Origin: Petroclostridium xylanilyticum
Lineage (GTDB): Bacteria; Bacillota; Clostridia; SK-Y3
Direction: 5' to 3'
DNA length: 64,000 nt
Assembly: GCF_002252565.1 (NCBI RefSeq)
Contig: NZ_NPML01000019.1
Location: forward strand, 496,001 to 560,000
Below are positions 7,377-55,798 of this stretch, one piece after another (the first letter of the stretch is position 1; every line of letters begins with the position of its first letter). Under the pieces are notes generated by a model. The model made no database searches, had not been told where the DNA came from, and worked only from the letters and a program-made list of their open reading frames with translations. A program made the position numbers and the translations under genes.

Positions 7377-7529
7377 TATATAAGTATTACTAAGTACTTT
7401 ACATTGTCTATTTTAGTTCACAGTTCACGGTCCACAGGATTTTCTTGGCTAATTTCTGTGAACTGAGAACTGTGAACCGTGAACAAAATAACAATAATGT
7501 AACATACTTAGTGTTATATATATATAGCA
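7377..7529. mobile_element. MITE-like palindromic element, copy 1
   Basis: This 153-bp element has long imperfect inverted arms. The left end TATATAAGTATTACTAAGTA is mirrored by a right end reading TATATATATAACACTAAGTA on the other strand, and the arms continue through GTTCAC/GTGAAC heptamers to a short central loop. A second copy at 54071-54221 differs by one substitution and a 2-bp indel in the terminal TA run. It contains no open frame. It fills most of the 326-bp gap between the MATE gene and the next gene. Confidence 0.7.
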
Positions 7530-8370: not shown

Positions 8371-8487
8371 TTCCGGCAACGACCTACTTTCCCGGGAGGT
8401 CCCCCTCCAAGTATCATCGGCACGATGGAGCTTAACTACCGTGTTCGGAATGGGAACGGGTGTGTCCTCCATGTCATTGTCACCGGA
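8371..8487 (-). rRNA. rrf: 5S ribosomal RNA
   Basis: The minus strand begins TCCGGTGACAATGACATGG and carries the conserved CCGTTCCCATTCCGAACACG loop, ending with GTTGCCGGAA, giving a complete gene of about 117 nt. It is the last gene of the 16S-23S-5S operon. Small open frames on either strand here are artefacts. Confidence 0.95.
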
Positions 8488-8603
8488 TAATTCAACTGTG
8501 TTGATTTTTCGTTCACAGGTCACGGTTTGAATTCTTAACCTGCTCTTTTAATTGCCTCAGGTACTCTTTCTTGTTCACCAGCATGTTCCCCATTCACCTT
8601 TCT

Positions 8604-8635
8604 ACTGTGAACTGTGAACCATGAACTGTGAACTG
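8604..8635. repeat. YGTGAAC heptamer array in the 23S-5S spacer
   Basis: Four to five tandem heptamers of the form TGTGAAC or CATGAAC lie between the 5S and 23S genes. A short inverted partner (GTTCACAGGTCACGG) is at 8511-8525, so the transcript can fold back. Confidence 0.7.
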
Positions 8636-8756
8636 TTTCATGTACCTTCAAAATTAAACAATGCTTTGACATGAGGTTTTTGCAAAAACCTTCTTCATAT
8701 ATTCTTTCCCGCAATTAACCTCGTCCTTAATAATTATTCATTGTTAATTGCTTTCT

Positions 8757-11598
<2,842 letters not shown>

Positions 11599-11821
11599 CA
11601 TTTGTTTTAGTGTGGAGTGGGAAGTGGATAGTGGGGAGTTCCCTCCTCCAGTCCTTACTTCCTTATCCTTCACTTTTTGAACATTCTGGTGTTCTCCTGT
11701 TTTTAGAATTATATGAGTAAAGTTTTCCTTTGAAATTACAGTGTAATACAGTGTTCTCCACTGCAGTTACCCTATGATCTTTTCCTCATGTCTTTACATT
11801 GTTTAGTTTTCAAGGTACATT

Positions 11822-11898
<77 letters not shown>

Positions 11899-11901
11899 AT
11901 G

Positions 11902-11977
11902 TGGTGGAGATGAGGAGAATCGAACTCCTGACCCCCTGCTTGCAAGGCAGGTGCTCTCCCAGCTGAGCTACACCCCC
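11902..11977 (-). tRNA. tRNA-Ala (TGC)
   Basis: A 76-nt cloverleaf with anticodon TGC, 5' GGGGGTGTAGCTCAG and encoded CCA. It is the first tRNA after 16S, so the order is Ala then Ile. Confidence 0.97.
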
Positions 11978-12087
11978 ACAGTTATTGCGGTCAGTGACTT
12001 TGTCACTTAACCCTACATTAATTTAATTAATCATTAACAATTCTATTGAAAAACCTTTTATTAGCTTCATGCTTTCATGGGTAATGT

Positions 12088-12122
12088 TTTTTCCCCACTC
12101 CCCACTATTCACTGTCCACTAA
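12088..12122. repeat. GGGGAGT heptamer repeat in the 16S-tRNA spacer
   Basis: CCCCACTCCCCACT, followed by a degenerate CACTGTCCACT unit, lies in the transcribed spacer. A related degenerate GTGGGAAGTGG/GTGGGGAGT copy is in the tRNA-Ile to 23S spacer at 11609-11640, in the opposite orientation. Confidence 0.6.
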
Positions 12123-12249
12123 TGAATTGGTCTTTCAAAATTAAACAGCGTAAGCGTTCTCAGACATTACTTATCGTAATGTATCGACCATAGGATTCGT
12201 TCCTTACTTGAATAATTATTAATTATTAATTATTAATTGGAACTTCTCT

Positions 12250-13773
<1,524 letters not shown>

Positions 13774-13775
13774 AT

Positions 13776-13815
13776 GTTCACGGTTCACAGGTCACGGTTC
13801 ACTGTTCACTGAACC
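13776..13815. repeat. GTTCACGG heptamer array abutting the 16S 5' end
   Basis: About five units of GTTCACG/GTTCACA lie within a few bases of the mature 16S start in the rRNA leader. It is the inverted partner of the array at 13951-13980. Confidence 0.7.
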
Positions 13816-13950
13816 TCTTCTGTCAACCCAATCTGTTCCCCGTTATATATTAATCGTTCAATTTAGCTCATAAACTATTACTAACTTACTTTATTAAGTA
13901 CGCTAGGTTTACTCATTTTTTGTTCACACTTTCACTCTCACCGCTCACTT

Positions 13951-13980
13951 CTGTGAACTGTGAACCGTGAACTGTGAACT
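13951..13980. repeat. YGTGAAC heptamer array in the rRNA leader
   Basis: Four perfect alternating TGTGAAC/CGTGAAC units. Together with 13776-13815 they form inverted arms about 135 bp apart within the rRNA leader transcript. Confidence 0.7.
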
Positions 13981-14243: not shown

Positions 14244-14454
14244 TATATTTTTTAATATATTTTTTGTTGTTATTGCTGTTTTGCAACAGCTTTAATAATA
14301 TAACACATAACTACTATTTTATTCAAATGAAACTTAATCCTATTAAATGCGATAGATTAACATTATGTAAATTTATTTACTCTATGCTATTCTTTTTTCA
14401 CTTACGCTGCTTTATACATCTCTTTTGTTTAATATTGATTATAACGGTCTGAAA

Positions 14455-14660
14455 CTTTGTCGGCTTCTATCAAAGCTTTCCAAGACGCTTCAACGTCCAC
14501 ATCTCTGTTGACGCTGGTCTTTGACCCAAGCTCCTTGGTGGTTACTTGGACTGGACTTGCACCAGTTAGCGAATTACGGCTCCGCCGGGCACGCCCGAAA
14601 CTGCTGAAAAAATGCTTCTACTTATATTCAATTTTAGAAGCACGCAGCTATCTAATTCAT
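14455..14660 (-). other. Unidentified GC-richer structured segment, possibly a group II intron-like RNA remnant
   Basis: The base composition is clearly richer in G+C than the AT-rich DNA around it. Read on the minus strand it contains GGTGCAAGTCCAGTCC followed by AACCACCAAGGAGCTT. It also has a TGCTTCTA/TAGAAGCA hairpin with a T-run (14615-14645). The GCAAGTCC phrase recalls group II intron domain I, but no maturase and no intron 5' GTGCG end were found. The identity is a guess; an unrelated structured RNA is equally possible. Confidence 0.25.
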
Positions 14661-41862: not shown

Positions 41863-42058
41863 GTTTACAGTTCACGGTTCACAGATTACTGCAAAATTAA
41901 TTAAAGACACATTGCAAATACTTCTTATTTAGCTTAATATGCTGCGCTATATATAACGCGATAATGATTTTGCACTGAAGTTGCAATTAGTTCAGGGTTC
42001 GAAGTTTGGAGTTCCGAGTTAGAAATTACATAAATGAGAATCTCCGAACTCCGAACTG
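41863..42058. repeat. Heptamer repeats in the YhcC-pfkA gap
   Basis: CAGTTCACGGTTCACAG (41868-41885) is a YGTGAAC unit pair. At 41998-42058 a different family appears: degenerate TTCGGAG units and the inverted CTCCGAA-CTCCGAA arms form a hairpin. The gap 41829-42198 holds nothing else I recognise. Confidence 0.65.
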
Positions 42059-46470: not shown

Positions 46471-46533
46471 TGGTTCACAGTAGTAAACGATTTAATAGCT
46501 TTTACTGTGAACCGTGAACTGTGAACCGTGAAC
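46471..46533. repeat. YGTGAAC heptamer inverted repeat
   Basis: TGGTTCACAGTA (46471-46482) pairs with TACTGTGAACC (46503-46513); three more heptamers follow. The remaining AT-rich DNA up to the riboswitch promoter shows nothing I recognise. Confidence 0.7.
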
Positions 46534-46844: not shown

Positions 46845-46990
46845 AAAGTTAGCACACATGGCTGAATCCCTTATATAGGGGTACGGAGGAACCAATAATC
46901 AGGGGTGAATCTACGCTTTTGCGTGGTAGGTATACCTTCTTTACCAAACCCGTCAGCTAACTCCGGAAGCAAATTTACTACGGAAGGAGT
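46845..46990 (+). promoter_or_regulatory. Cyclic di-AMP riboswitch (ydaO/yuaA)
   Basis: The conserved core is visible: GGGGTACGGAGGAACCAATA, then GGGGTGAATCTACGC and the closing CCGTCAGCTAACTCCG. The class commonly controls cell-wall hydrolases and ion transport. No terminator is seen after the aptamer. ACTCC in its 3' strand can pair with the GGAGT of the Shine-Dalgarno sequence, so translational control is suggested. Confidence 0.88.
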
Positions 46991-53125: not shown

Positions 53126-53371
53126 TCACATATGCCTTGATAATCTCCTTATAGCAAATTGCATTTTTTTTGATGCAGTTTTTACAATCCATTGGGAGTC
53201 TACGCTCCTCTTTCCTTTTGCTGCTTTTACTCTAGGCTTTTTTAATCTTGTTCGCTTTAGTGTATTATCTACCTCTTCCATCTTAACATCCAGATATTCT
53301 TCAATTTCATTTAAACCCTTTTTGATTTTTTGTATTGAAAAAAGATTTTTTATATATTTGGAAAATGTCAT
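53126..53371 (-). CDS. Small basic hypothetical protein
   Basis: An 81-residue protein with a predicted helix (KIKKGLNEIEEYLDVKMEEVDN, cited as residues 15-36) and a strongly basic C-terminal half (KRTRLKKPRVKAAKGKR). I do not recognise the family. I chose ATG 53371 because GGAGG lies seven bases upstream. Its charge pattern would allow nucleic-acid or membrane binding, but this is only a description. Confidence 0.6.
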   Translation of the reverse strand: MTFSKYIKNLFSIQKIKKGLNEIEEYLDVKMEEVDNTLKRTRLKKPRVKAAKGKRSVDSQWIVKTASKKMQFAIRRLSRHM

Positions 53372-53494
53372 TTTATCGCCTCCGGAATTACTCTTACACA
53401 ACTATATTTATATACTACAGTATATGCATAGGTGCGACATAATGTACAAAATTGTTGCAGGGCAATATAAAAGTAATGTAAAATAAAAAAGGCA

Positions 53495-53580
53495 TAAAAA
53501 AAGTCGCGGTAGATAATTCTACCGCCAGATAAGTAAAGGGGGTCTCAATGTATTTTGTGAGGTCATTATTAATGATGCCC
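53495..53580 (-). ncRNA. Candidate small RNA, twin copy 1
   Basis: On the minus strand an AATAAT box (53564-53572) precedes GACCTCAC, a first hairpin (GACCTCA with TGAGACC, G-U pairs allowed), a 20-nt spacer, and a second hairpin GCGGTAGA/TCTACCGC (53506-53525) followed by GACTTTTTTT, a perfect intrinsic terminator. It is about 75 nt long and has no open frame. A sister copy follows at 53704-53790; 50 bases are identical between them. Confidence 0.5.
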
Positions 53581-53703
53581 GGTTTTGCTTTTTATTATAC
53601 ATACTGTACAAAAAATTTTTAAAGTTTTTCATAAAATCGAGATTAAGATTAAGAACGTATTTTACCTTACCATTAGCAAGTAATTTCAAAGCAAAATTTC
53701 CTG

Positions 53704-53790
53704 TATAAAAAAAGAGGGCGGCAGATAACCTACCGCCAGATAAGTAAAGGGGGTCTCAATGTATTTTGTGAGGTCATTATAAAGTATACC
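53704..53790 (-). ncRNA. Candidate small RNA, twin copy 2
   Basis: Same layout, 211 bp away: TATAAT box, GACCTCAC hairpin, spacer, GGCGGTAG/CTGCCGCC hairpin and CTCTTTTTTT. Its one stem change is a G-U pair on the minus strand but a C-A mismatch on the plus strand, which favours a minus-strand RNA. Confidence 0.5.
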
Positions 53791-54070
53791 CGCTTTGACA
53801 ACTTCTATACACAAATATGAGACCTTTTTAAAATTTTTATACCGATAACCAATATTAAAAGCTAAAAATAAATTAATGTAGTTATCGATGAAATTCGCGA
53901 AGTTTGTATTAAGGAAATATTGAATTTTAAACTTCGCTCATTATAAGACTAAAGTTTGAGATTCAGATTAAGGCTGAAATTAAGAGTAGATTATAAGCCA
54001 TATACAATAAAATTTAACAATAAAACCGATAGAACATGGAAATAATTCTATACAAATACCTTTCAATGGC

Positions 54071-54221
54071 TATATAAGTATTACTAAGTACTTTACATTG
54101 TCTATTTTAGTTCACAGTTCACGGTTCACAGGATTTTCTTGGCTAATTTCTGTGAACTGAGAACTGTGAACCGTGAACAAAATAACAATAATGTAACATA
54201 CTTAGTGTTATATATATAGCA
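54071..54221. mobile_element. MITE-like palindromic element, copy 2
   Basis: The 151-bp twin of 7377-7529, with a single substitution and a 2-bp shorter TA run. It lies upstream of murT in a gene-free stretch (53800-54330) that otherwise contains only AGATTA units (53948-53990). Confidence 0.7.
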
Positions 54222-54334
54222 AGTAAATTATATTGTAAAATCCTGCTATTTATAATTTATGGTTTACTATTTAACAACTAGCAGTTAATATTATATCTGT
54301 GGACTGTGAACTCAAAAAGAAAAAGGTGATATTT

Positions 54335-55696
54335 ATGAATTACATACGAAAATTGTTTGCAATATGGGCCGCAAAAGCTGCAATTATAGCAAGCAAATTG
54401 TTGGGTAAAAAAGGTTCTTCCGGCCCGGGAAATATTGCACTTAAAATATATCCAAATATTCTAAAGGATTTAGCCTCAAGGGTAAAAAAAGAAATACTGA
54501 TTGTTTGTGGAACCAATGGAAAAACCACGACAAACAACATGGTATATAACTTATTAACTGCCAATGGCTACAGCGTAGTATGCAACAGGGTAGGCGCCAA
54601 TATGCTGGAAGGGATTGTTACAGCCTTTGTTAATTCCGCTACCCTATGGGGTAGTCTGGATGCAGATTATGCATCTATTGAGGTGGACGAAGCATCGGCG
54701 GTGAAAATTTTTGACCACCTTTCTCCTTCAAAAATCATCATTACAAATTTATTTAGAGATCAACTGGACCGATATGGCGAAATAGATATCACAATAAAGC
54801 TCTTGAATCAAGCTTTAAAAAAAGTTCCGGAAGCCAGCCTTATATTAAATGGAGATGATCCTCTTACAGCCCGTTTTGGTCATAATACTGATAGAAAGTG
54901 TTACTTTTTTGGGATAGATCAGAATTTGAATATTAGTCTGAATGAAACAAAAGAAGGCCGCTTTTGTACCTTTTGTGGTGAAGAGCTACAGTACAACTAC
55001 TACCACTACAGCCAACTGGGTGACTTTTTTTGTCCTTCCTGCGGTTTTAAACGTCCTTCCCTTGACTTTAAGGCCTTCGACGTGCATCTTGAGGACGGGC
55101 TGCAGTTTGAAGTAGCTTATGATTGCTCTACTGCTTCGTTTAACTTGAATTATAAGGGATTTTATAATATATATAATATCCTTGCATCCATGTCGGCAGC
55201 AACCTTACTTGGTATTGATATTCATACCATCAACAATGTATTAAGCCGCTATAAACCGCAGATAGGCCGTATGGAAACCTTTCACCTGGGTAAACCGGTT
55301 ATATTTAACCTGTCTAAAAACCCTGCAGGTTTTAATCAGGCTATTTCCGCCGTACTCCAGGACCCTCGTACAAAAGATATAATGGTGGTTATCAATGACA
55401 ATGCCCAGGATGGTAAAGATATCTCATGGATATGGGATGTAGATTTTGAAAGGTTTGTAACACCAAACATTAAAAGCTATATTGCCTCAGGAATCAGAAA
55501 GGAAGATGTAGCAGTACGGTTTAAGTATGCAGGCATTGATGAAGATAATGTTACGATACAAGGAGATATAAGGTCGGCAATTATTGATCTAGTGAACCGC
55601 AGTGGTGAAGTATGCTATATATTGGTAAATTATACTGCCCTTTTTAGTACGCAGAATATATTGAAATCCCTTGAGAAAAGTGGAGAATATAAGTAA
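54335..55696 (+). CDS. murT: Lipid II isoglutaminyl synthase, MurT subunit
   Basis: With GatD it amidates the D-glutamate of lipid II to isoglutamine, which is needed for cross-linking of Gram-positive wall. The 453-residue Mur ligase-like protein has a P-loop VCGTNGKTTTNN near 55-66 and a central domain with a zinc ribbon (CTFCGEEL near 209, CPSCGF near 229). The C-terminal MurT domain has NDNAQDGKDISWIWD near 365, which holds the catalytic aspartate. I chose ATG 54335, with AAGGTGAT five bases upstream. A GTG at 54299 lies in a repeat. gatD follows after a 126-bp repeat-filled gap. Confidence 0.95.
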   Translation: MNYIRKLFAIWAAKAAIIASKLLGKKGSSGPGNIALKIYPNILKDLASRVKKEILIVCGTNGKTTTNNMVYNLLTANGYSVVCNRVGANMLEGIVTAFVNSATLWGSLDADYASIEVDEASAVKIFDHLSPSKIIITNLFRDQLDRYGEIDITIKLLNQALKKVPEASLILNGDDPLTARFGHNTDRKCYFFGIDQNLNISLNETKEGRFCTFCGEELQYNYYHYSQLGDFFCPSCGFKRPSLDFKAFDVHLEDGLQFEVAYDCSTASFNLNYKGFYNIYNILASMSAATLLGIDIHTINNVLSRYKPQIGRMETFHLGKPVIFNLSKNPAGFNQAISAVLQDPRTKDIMVVINDNAQDGKDISWIWDVDFERFVTPNIKSYIASGIRKEDVAVRFKYAGIDEDNVTIQGDIRSAIIDLVNRSGEVCYILVNYTALFSTQNILKSLEKSGEYK

Positions 55697-55723: not shown

Positions 55724-55798
55724 AGTTCATAGTTCACGGTTCACAATAATTGAGATAACTATTAAAATCTGTGAACCGTGAACTGTTAACTGTGAACT
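55724..55798. repeat. YGTGAAC heptamer inverted repeat inside the murT-gatD operon
   Basis: CATAGTTCACGGTTCAC pairs with GTGAACCGTGAACTG across about 30 bp. AGATTA-type units (55697-55713) precede it. Confidence 0.7.

Follow-up and report, generated by a model that had tools for sequence, protein, structure and literature searches.

Two short, nearly identical units lie close together on the minus strand of the 64-kb stretch of DNA analyzed here (the window), at positions 53496-53600 and 53707-53810, and they raise the question of whether they are genes for a small RNA and, if so, where and on what such an RNA would act. A first-pass annotation of the sequence had proposed twin small-RNA genes, and several of its observations were recovered exactly. 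The copies are spaced by 211 bp (53519-53585 versus 53730-53796; 67 nt, 93% identity) and share an identical run of 50 bases, reading TAATGACC...GGCGGTAG on the minus strand (full run: TAATGACCTCACAAAATACATTGAGACCCCCTTTACTTATCTGGCGGTAG). Divergence of the two copies begins after this run, in the loop and arm of the terminator, in agreement with the reported divergence of the stems. The changed stem position in copy 2 is present as described: its bases pair as U-G in RNA read from the minus strand and are mismatched when the plus strand is read. A consensus terminator scan likewise confirmed a separate terminator for each unit, with two intrinsic terminators found on the minus strand only (GCGGTAGA/TCTACCGC and GGCGGTAG/CTGCCGCC; 0.2 in shuffled sequences). 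A 31-nt probe matched only these two sites in the window, with none expected by chance. The annotation had missed a third copy in the same genome (C4:244731-244804), as well as the forespore-type promoter and the class-wide conservation described below.

The layout of both copies suggests RNA genes on the minus strand, each equipped with a separate promoter and terminator. In copy 1, a -35 element GTATA (53596-53600) and a sigma F/G-like -10 element, GGGCATCATTA (53570-53580), with a profile common to spoVT promoters, precede a predicted small RNA of ~70 nt (53496-53568; boundaries from the terminator scan and family alignment A1, start placed to ±3 nt). This RNA would contain the invariant core GACCTCACAAAATACATTGAGACCCCCTTTAC (53533-53564), delimited by family comparison, and a terminator stem-loop (53506-53525) followed by a T-run (53496-53502). 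Copy 2 has the same arrangement on the same strand, with the conserved family promoter represented by GTATA (53806-53810) and GGGTATACTTTA (53780-53791), followed by a predicted ~70-nt RNA (53707-53779), a core of identical sequence (53744-53775), a terminator stem-loop with one U-G pair (53717-53737) and a T-run (53707-53713). We infer that the ~70-nt RNA starts near AAUGACCUC. The AT-rich box directly 5' of GACC, previously taken for the -10 element, lies beside the core and is probably the RNA start; the conserved GTATA / GGnnAnAHTA promoter sits further upstream.

Our preferred reading, held with moderate confidence, is that each unit would be a gene for a ~70-nt non-coding RNA that has a forespore promoter and serves as a trans-acting regulator in spore formation. 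The sequence data support an RNA gene family that is non-coding, has a forespore-like promoter and occurs in spore-formers, whereas transcription itself, the compartment, base-pairing and targets are what we infer. In the proposed mechanism, the minus strand would be transcribed in the forespore from the sigma-F/sigma-G-type promoter, the intrinsic terminator would end the RNA at ~70 nt, the C-rich parts of the core would pair in trans with purine-rich ribosome-binding sites, perhaps with assistance from Hfq, and the translation of a set of forespore mRNAs would be lowered.

BLASTN of copy 1 against 60 relatives retrieved close matches to a core of ~36 nt from many families of the class, with the identity of the core extending well past what the remaining sequence showed. 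A gapped-pattern scan of 84,980 species (one genome each) yielded 91 stretches, nearly all clostridial, and a sequence-only model (R1) had matches in 107 of 391 Clostridia genomes; a carrier has one to four copies. In a sample of 299 spanning the phylum, matches occurred only in the window's own genome and in three members of a single genus that falls outside Clostridia. Carriers include Petroclostridium sp. X23, Ruminiclostridium cellobioparum, R. papyrosolvens, R. sufflavum, Acetivibrio straminisolvens, A. mesophilus, A. alkalicellulosi, Thermoanaerobacterium saccharolyticum, Lutispora thermophila and Anaerosolibacter carboniphilus. Two non-Clostridia matches (L058 and L088) were without the flanking architecture and look like chance matches; a match labelled Calditrichales (L056) had the complete flanking architecture and may be a mislabelled contig. 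The viral collection contained one contig, with an element identical to one on a MAG contig, and searches of the phage and plasmid collections gave no match. For the units, no Rfam 15 covariance model matched in the window at gathering level or at the locus up to an E-value of 10, in line with the annotation's own failure to place them in a known family. A text search of the literature for the core sequence returned none; the original CsfG paper or the 2011 mBio survey of clostridial sRNAs may mention single members. The units belong to a candidate small-RNA family that is absent from Rfam.

The spore protease GPR was encoded in 103 of the 107 carriers versus 174 of 284 non-carriers (p = 6e-14 by Fisher's test, with no correction for kinship); one of the four carriers lacking GPR was a weak match and the rest were fragmented assemblies. 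Because 174 GPR-bearing Clostridia genomes have no match, sporulation in general does not require the RNA.

Members of the family have a fixed order of promoter, near-invariant core and terminator. The core follows the formula GACCTCACAAAATACATT(GA/TT)GACCCCCTTTAC and comprises 32 nt, mostly unpaired, with GACCTCACAAAATACATT as part A (GACCUCACAAAAUACAUU) and GACCCCCTTTAC as part B (GACCCCCUUUAC). Among 104 members, the form ACATTGAGACCCCC was found in 50 and ACATTTTGACCCCC in 41. In the 92 ungapped cores, all positions other than GA/TT were invariant save for one substitution, and the AU-rich middle was as invariant as the remainder. The mean unpaired probability was 0.92 for part B and 0.70 for part A. 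Four members carry an extra hairpin inserted exactly between the two parts (L027:1435-1528, L028:1431-1525, L085:4984-5107 and L097:6730-6854), which suggests that A and B are separate modules.

A terminator followed the core in 103 of the 104 members, and its stems, built of standard pairs, had 77 different 5' arms. These pairs were derived from single-sequence folding, which shows that a stem always exists and not that it covaries column by column; persistence of the stem while its sequence turns over comes close to compensatory evidence, for the terminator only. RNAalifold on a MAFFT alignment gave zero consensus pairs because terminators of different length misalign, and the stems were therefore inspected singly and model R1 was built on sequence only. 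The compensatory conservation anticipated for the stems did not extend to the 5' hairpin GACCTCA/TGAGACC, which has only four contiguous pairs and is disrupted, without compensation or covariation, in 27-28 of 61 homologues; being lost in nearly half of the homologues, it was ruled out as a conserved element. The different terminators of the two copies, suggested to be a special regulatory feature, lose that significance because terminator sequence varies freely across the whole family. The idea of minus-strand RNA genes is largely borne out, with promoter, core and paired terminator kept in homologues, and its 5' hairpin, -10 position and special terminators were given up.

Because the core is unpaired, invariant, C-rich and complementary to Shine-Dalgarno-like sequences, it would be suited to base-pairing with mRNAs, and Hfq was encoded in 23 of 23 carriers tested. 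A search for pairing of the spacer with ribosome-binding sites had been proposed at the outset; complementary sites before start codons were present in every genome examined, but on differing genes. In 22 genomes, searching upstream of start codons for TAAAGGGGGT and TTTGTGAGGT returned mostly unrelated genes and a shared transposase. No conserved target gene recurred among the complementary start regions, and shuffled cores of the same composition paired with start regions about as well as the real core. It is possible, if doubtful, that the RNA is a real forespore RNA with a core that serves as a decoy or scaffold for some protein, such as Hfq or an RNA-binding protein of the spore, and does not pair with mRNA. 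The invariance of the whole core would fit this, as would the missing conserved mRNA partners, and the conserved AU-rich middle, for which Shine-Dalgarno pairing gives no reason, would be compatible with protein binding. However, part B is C-rich and unpaired, as are the corresponding stretches in RoxS, FsrA and CsfG (PMC4409812), and hairpins are tolerated between parts A and B. We regard as unlikely a further variant, that the core mimics the anti-Shine-Dalgarno end of 16S rRNA (ACCUC, ACCCCCUUU) and makes the RNA a class-wide general silencer; if true, it would act on forespore translation generally and not on a few chosen mRNAs.

The proposed forespore setting of the regulation depends on the promoter, whose positions were counted relative to ACCTCACA. 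Anchored on the core, a -35 element G[TAC]ATA was present at -35 to -37, the same distance as in copy 1, in 83 of 87 non-redundant upstream regions (68 GTATA, 10 GAATA and 5 GCATA). In the -10 region of the same 87 sequences, G prevailed at -17/-16 (66/75%), A at -10 (87%), T at -8 and A at -7, and G occurred in none at -9, the H of AHTA. The Bacillus sigma-F/G consensus is approximately GYATA + GGNNANAHTR, and the family promoter has the same form. In C. difficile, the upstream G of the -10 element marks the sigma F regulon and the downstream A that of sigma G, with spoVT having both (PMC3789822); like spoVT, the sRNA promoters of the family combine the two features. The sRNA promoters were then used to train a weight matrix, which was run upstream of other genes in the same genomes. 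For spoVT, 17 of 22 upstream regions scored above the 95% shuffle level (p = 5e-14), with TGTATAAAACACCAATAAATTAATAATACTAA found in the window's own genome. The gpr upstream regions were also enriched (p = 1e-4 relative to shuffles, p = 0.001 relative to neighbour genes), and only 1 of 22 exceeded the level for the mother-cell control ylbJ (TIGR02871 query). For SASP genes, the strict promoter pattern was found upstream in only 3 of 26 cases, and gpr and spoVT were therefore taken as the forespore yardstick. The match to spoVT without a match to the mother-cell gene points to the forespore sigma factors F and G, and because the promoter is sigma F/G-like, transcription would take place in the forespore. 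Expression of the small RNA under another sigma factor, of housekeeping or stress type and not specific to the forespore, seems improbable: a weak sigma-70-like pair does lie upstream of copy 1 (10/12), but pairs like it abound in shuffled DNA (2.7 expected), and the GTATA/GGnnAnAHTA promoter is found family-wide, anchored on the core, and matches spoVT in the same genomes.

The sRNA genes are intergenic and have recurrent neighbours, namely ispH-rpsA upstream with cheR downstream, speD upstream with cheR or ndk, aroK upstream (TT form) and, in the window, a divergent murT. The latter (54299-55696, plus strand) was named by Pfam (MurT_C + Mur_ligase_M), and within the family copies of this type keep it as their neighbour (L009-L011); the other neighbour names were read by eye from the protein sequences. 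Directly downstream of copy 1 lies a 91-aa basic ORF on the minus strand (53126-53401) with no Pfam match, and ORFs of like start and size occupy the equivalent place in L009, L010 and L012. The window has 19 occurrences, at ≤3 mismatches and with none expected by chance, of a repeat with 7-nt periodicity (GTTCACAGTTCACGGTTCAC and variants) that is often arranged in inverted pairs (7416-7484, 8607-8633, 13776-13979, 41863-41882, 46507-46533, 54110-54178 and 55725-55797), and one inverted pair of it lies between the sRNA copies and murT. The window also contains a RAGATH-18 RNA (RF03064; 44564-44624, minus strand, 69.3 bits), a c-di-AMP (ydaO/yuaA) riboswitch (46850-46987, plus strand, 89.2 bits) and a Group II intron fragment (group-II-D1D4-4; 14437-14568, minus strand) near the rRNA operon at 8371-13774.

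Because 87 of 104 members have an NTG before the core and many have cheR downstream, the units might be thought to encode a leaderless mini-ORF (MTSQNT...) or to be the leader of the downstream gene, which we consider very improbable. In 42 members the frame stops after 7 codons, in the others it continues for varying lengths, indels of 1-2 nt break it in several, third codon positions are invariant, and the downstream genes vary or sit on the opposite strand. The predicted family RNA is non-coding, its reading frame not being conserved. Were the units mobile or repetitive DNA, or DNA sites bound by a protein, the high sequence conservation and the several copies per genome would be accounted for, but this reading is highly unlikely given the fixed promoter-core-terminator order, the paired stems of changing sequence, the recurrent neighbourhoods, the limit of one to four copies per genome and the single viral contig with its MAG-identical element.

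The two neighbouring copies represent an unnamed family, present in more than 100 spore-forming clostridia, that would probably regulate mRNAs in the forespore. Few regulatory RNAs of the developing spore are known, and the forespore ones described so far come from Bacillus. Small RNAs usually diverge fast, which makes a 32-nt core that has barely changed across many clostridial families an unusual case. If expressed as predicted, the family would offer the anaerobe side of the spore-formers for testing forespore RNA regulation, with cultivable carriers in Thermoanaerobacterium, Ruminiclostridium and Acetivibrio.

An independent promoter and an intrinsic terminator in an intergenic location are general traits of trans-acting sRNAs that the family shares. 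RoxS/RsaE and FsrA have unpaired C-rich stretches, with ribosome-binding sites as their presumed pairing partners (PMC4409812), but they are expressed under other conditions, whereas the present family has a single C-rich stretch within a long invariant core; neither their models nor any other Rfam 15 covariance model gave a match. Bvs196 / S547 of Bacillus is an sRNA of the forespore, also under sigma F/G, and deleting it changes the resistance of the spores (PMC9147052); it is set apart by description, with 294 nt and a hinT-ecsA locus, and is known only from Bacillus. CsfG of Bacillus is a highly conserved forespore sRNA under sigma F and sigma G, with unpaired C/CU-rich stretches and an intrinsic terminator (PMC9147052, PMC3574147, PMC4409812), and its target was still unidentified in 2022 (PMC9147052). 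Its Rfam model (RF00516, 'ylbH', annotated on the opposite strand) had no match in the window, at the locus (E to 10) or in the own genome, and the present core is absent from the RF00516 consensus as shown. One sub-threshold RF00516 match (L038:1501-1582, minus strand, 27.6 bits) coincides in part with a tRNA predicted on the opposite strand and is probably due to chance. CsfG lies at ylbG-ylbH and has 136 nt with several hairpins bearing CU-rich loops, whereas the present ~70-nt RNA lies beside murT, ispH-rpsA/cheR, speD or aroK and conserves only the terminator hairpin. Membership in CsfG was ruled out by the RF00516 model, locus, size and structure. CsfG is nonetheless the nearest in kind, as a forespore sRNA with CU-rich stretches, and its sigma F and sigma G promoter trait has a counterpart here in the promoter profile and the comparison with spoVT and gpr.
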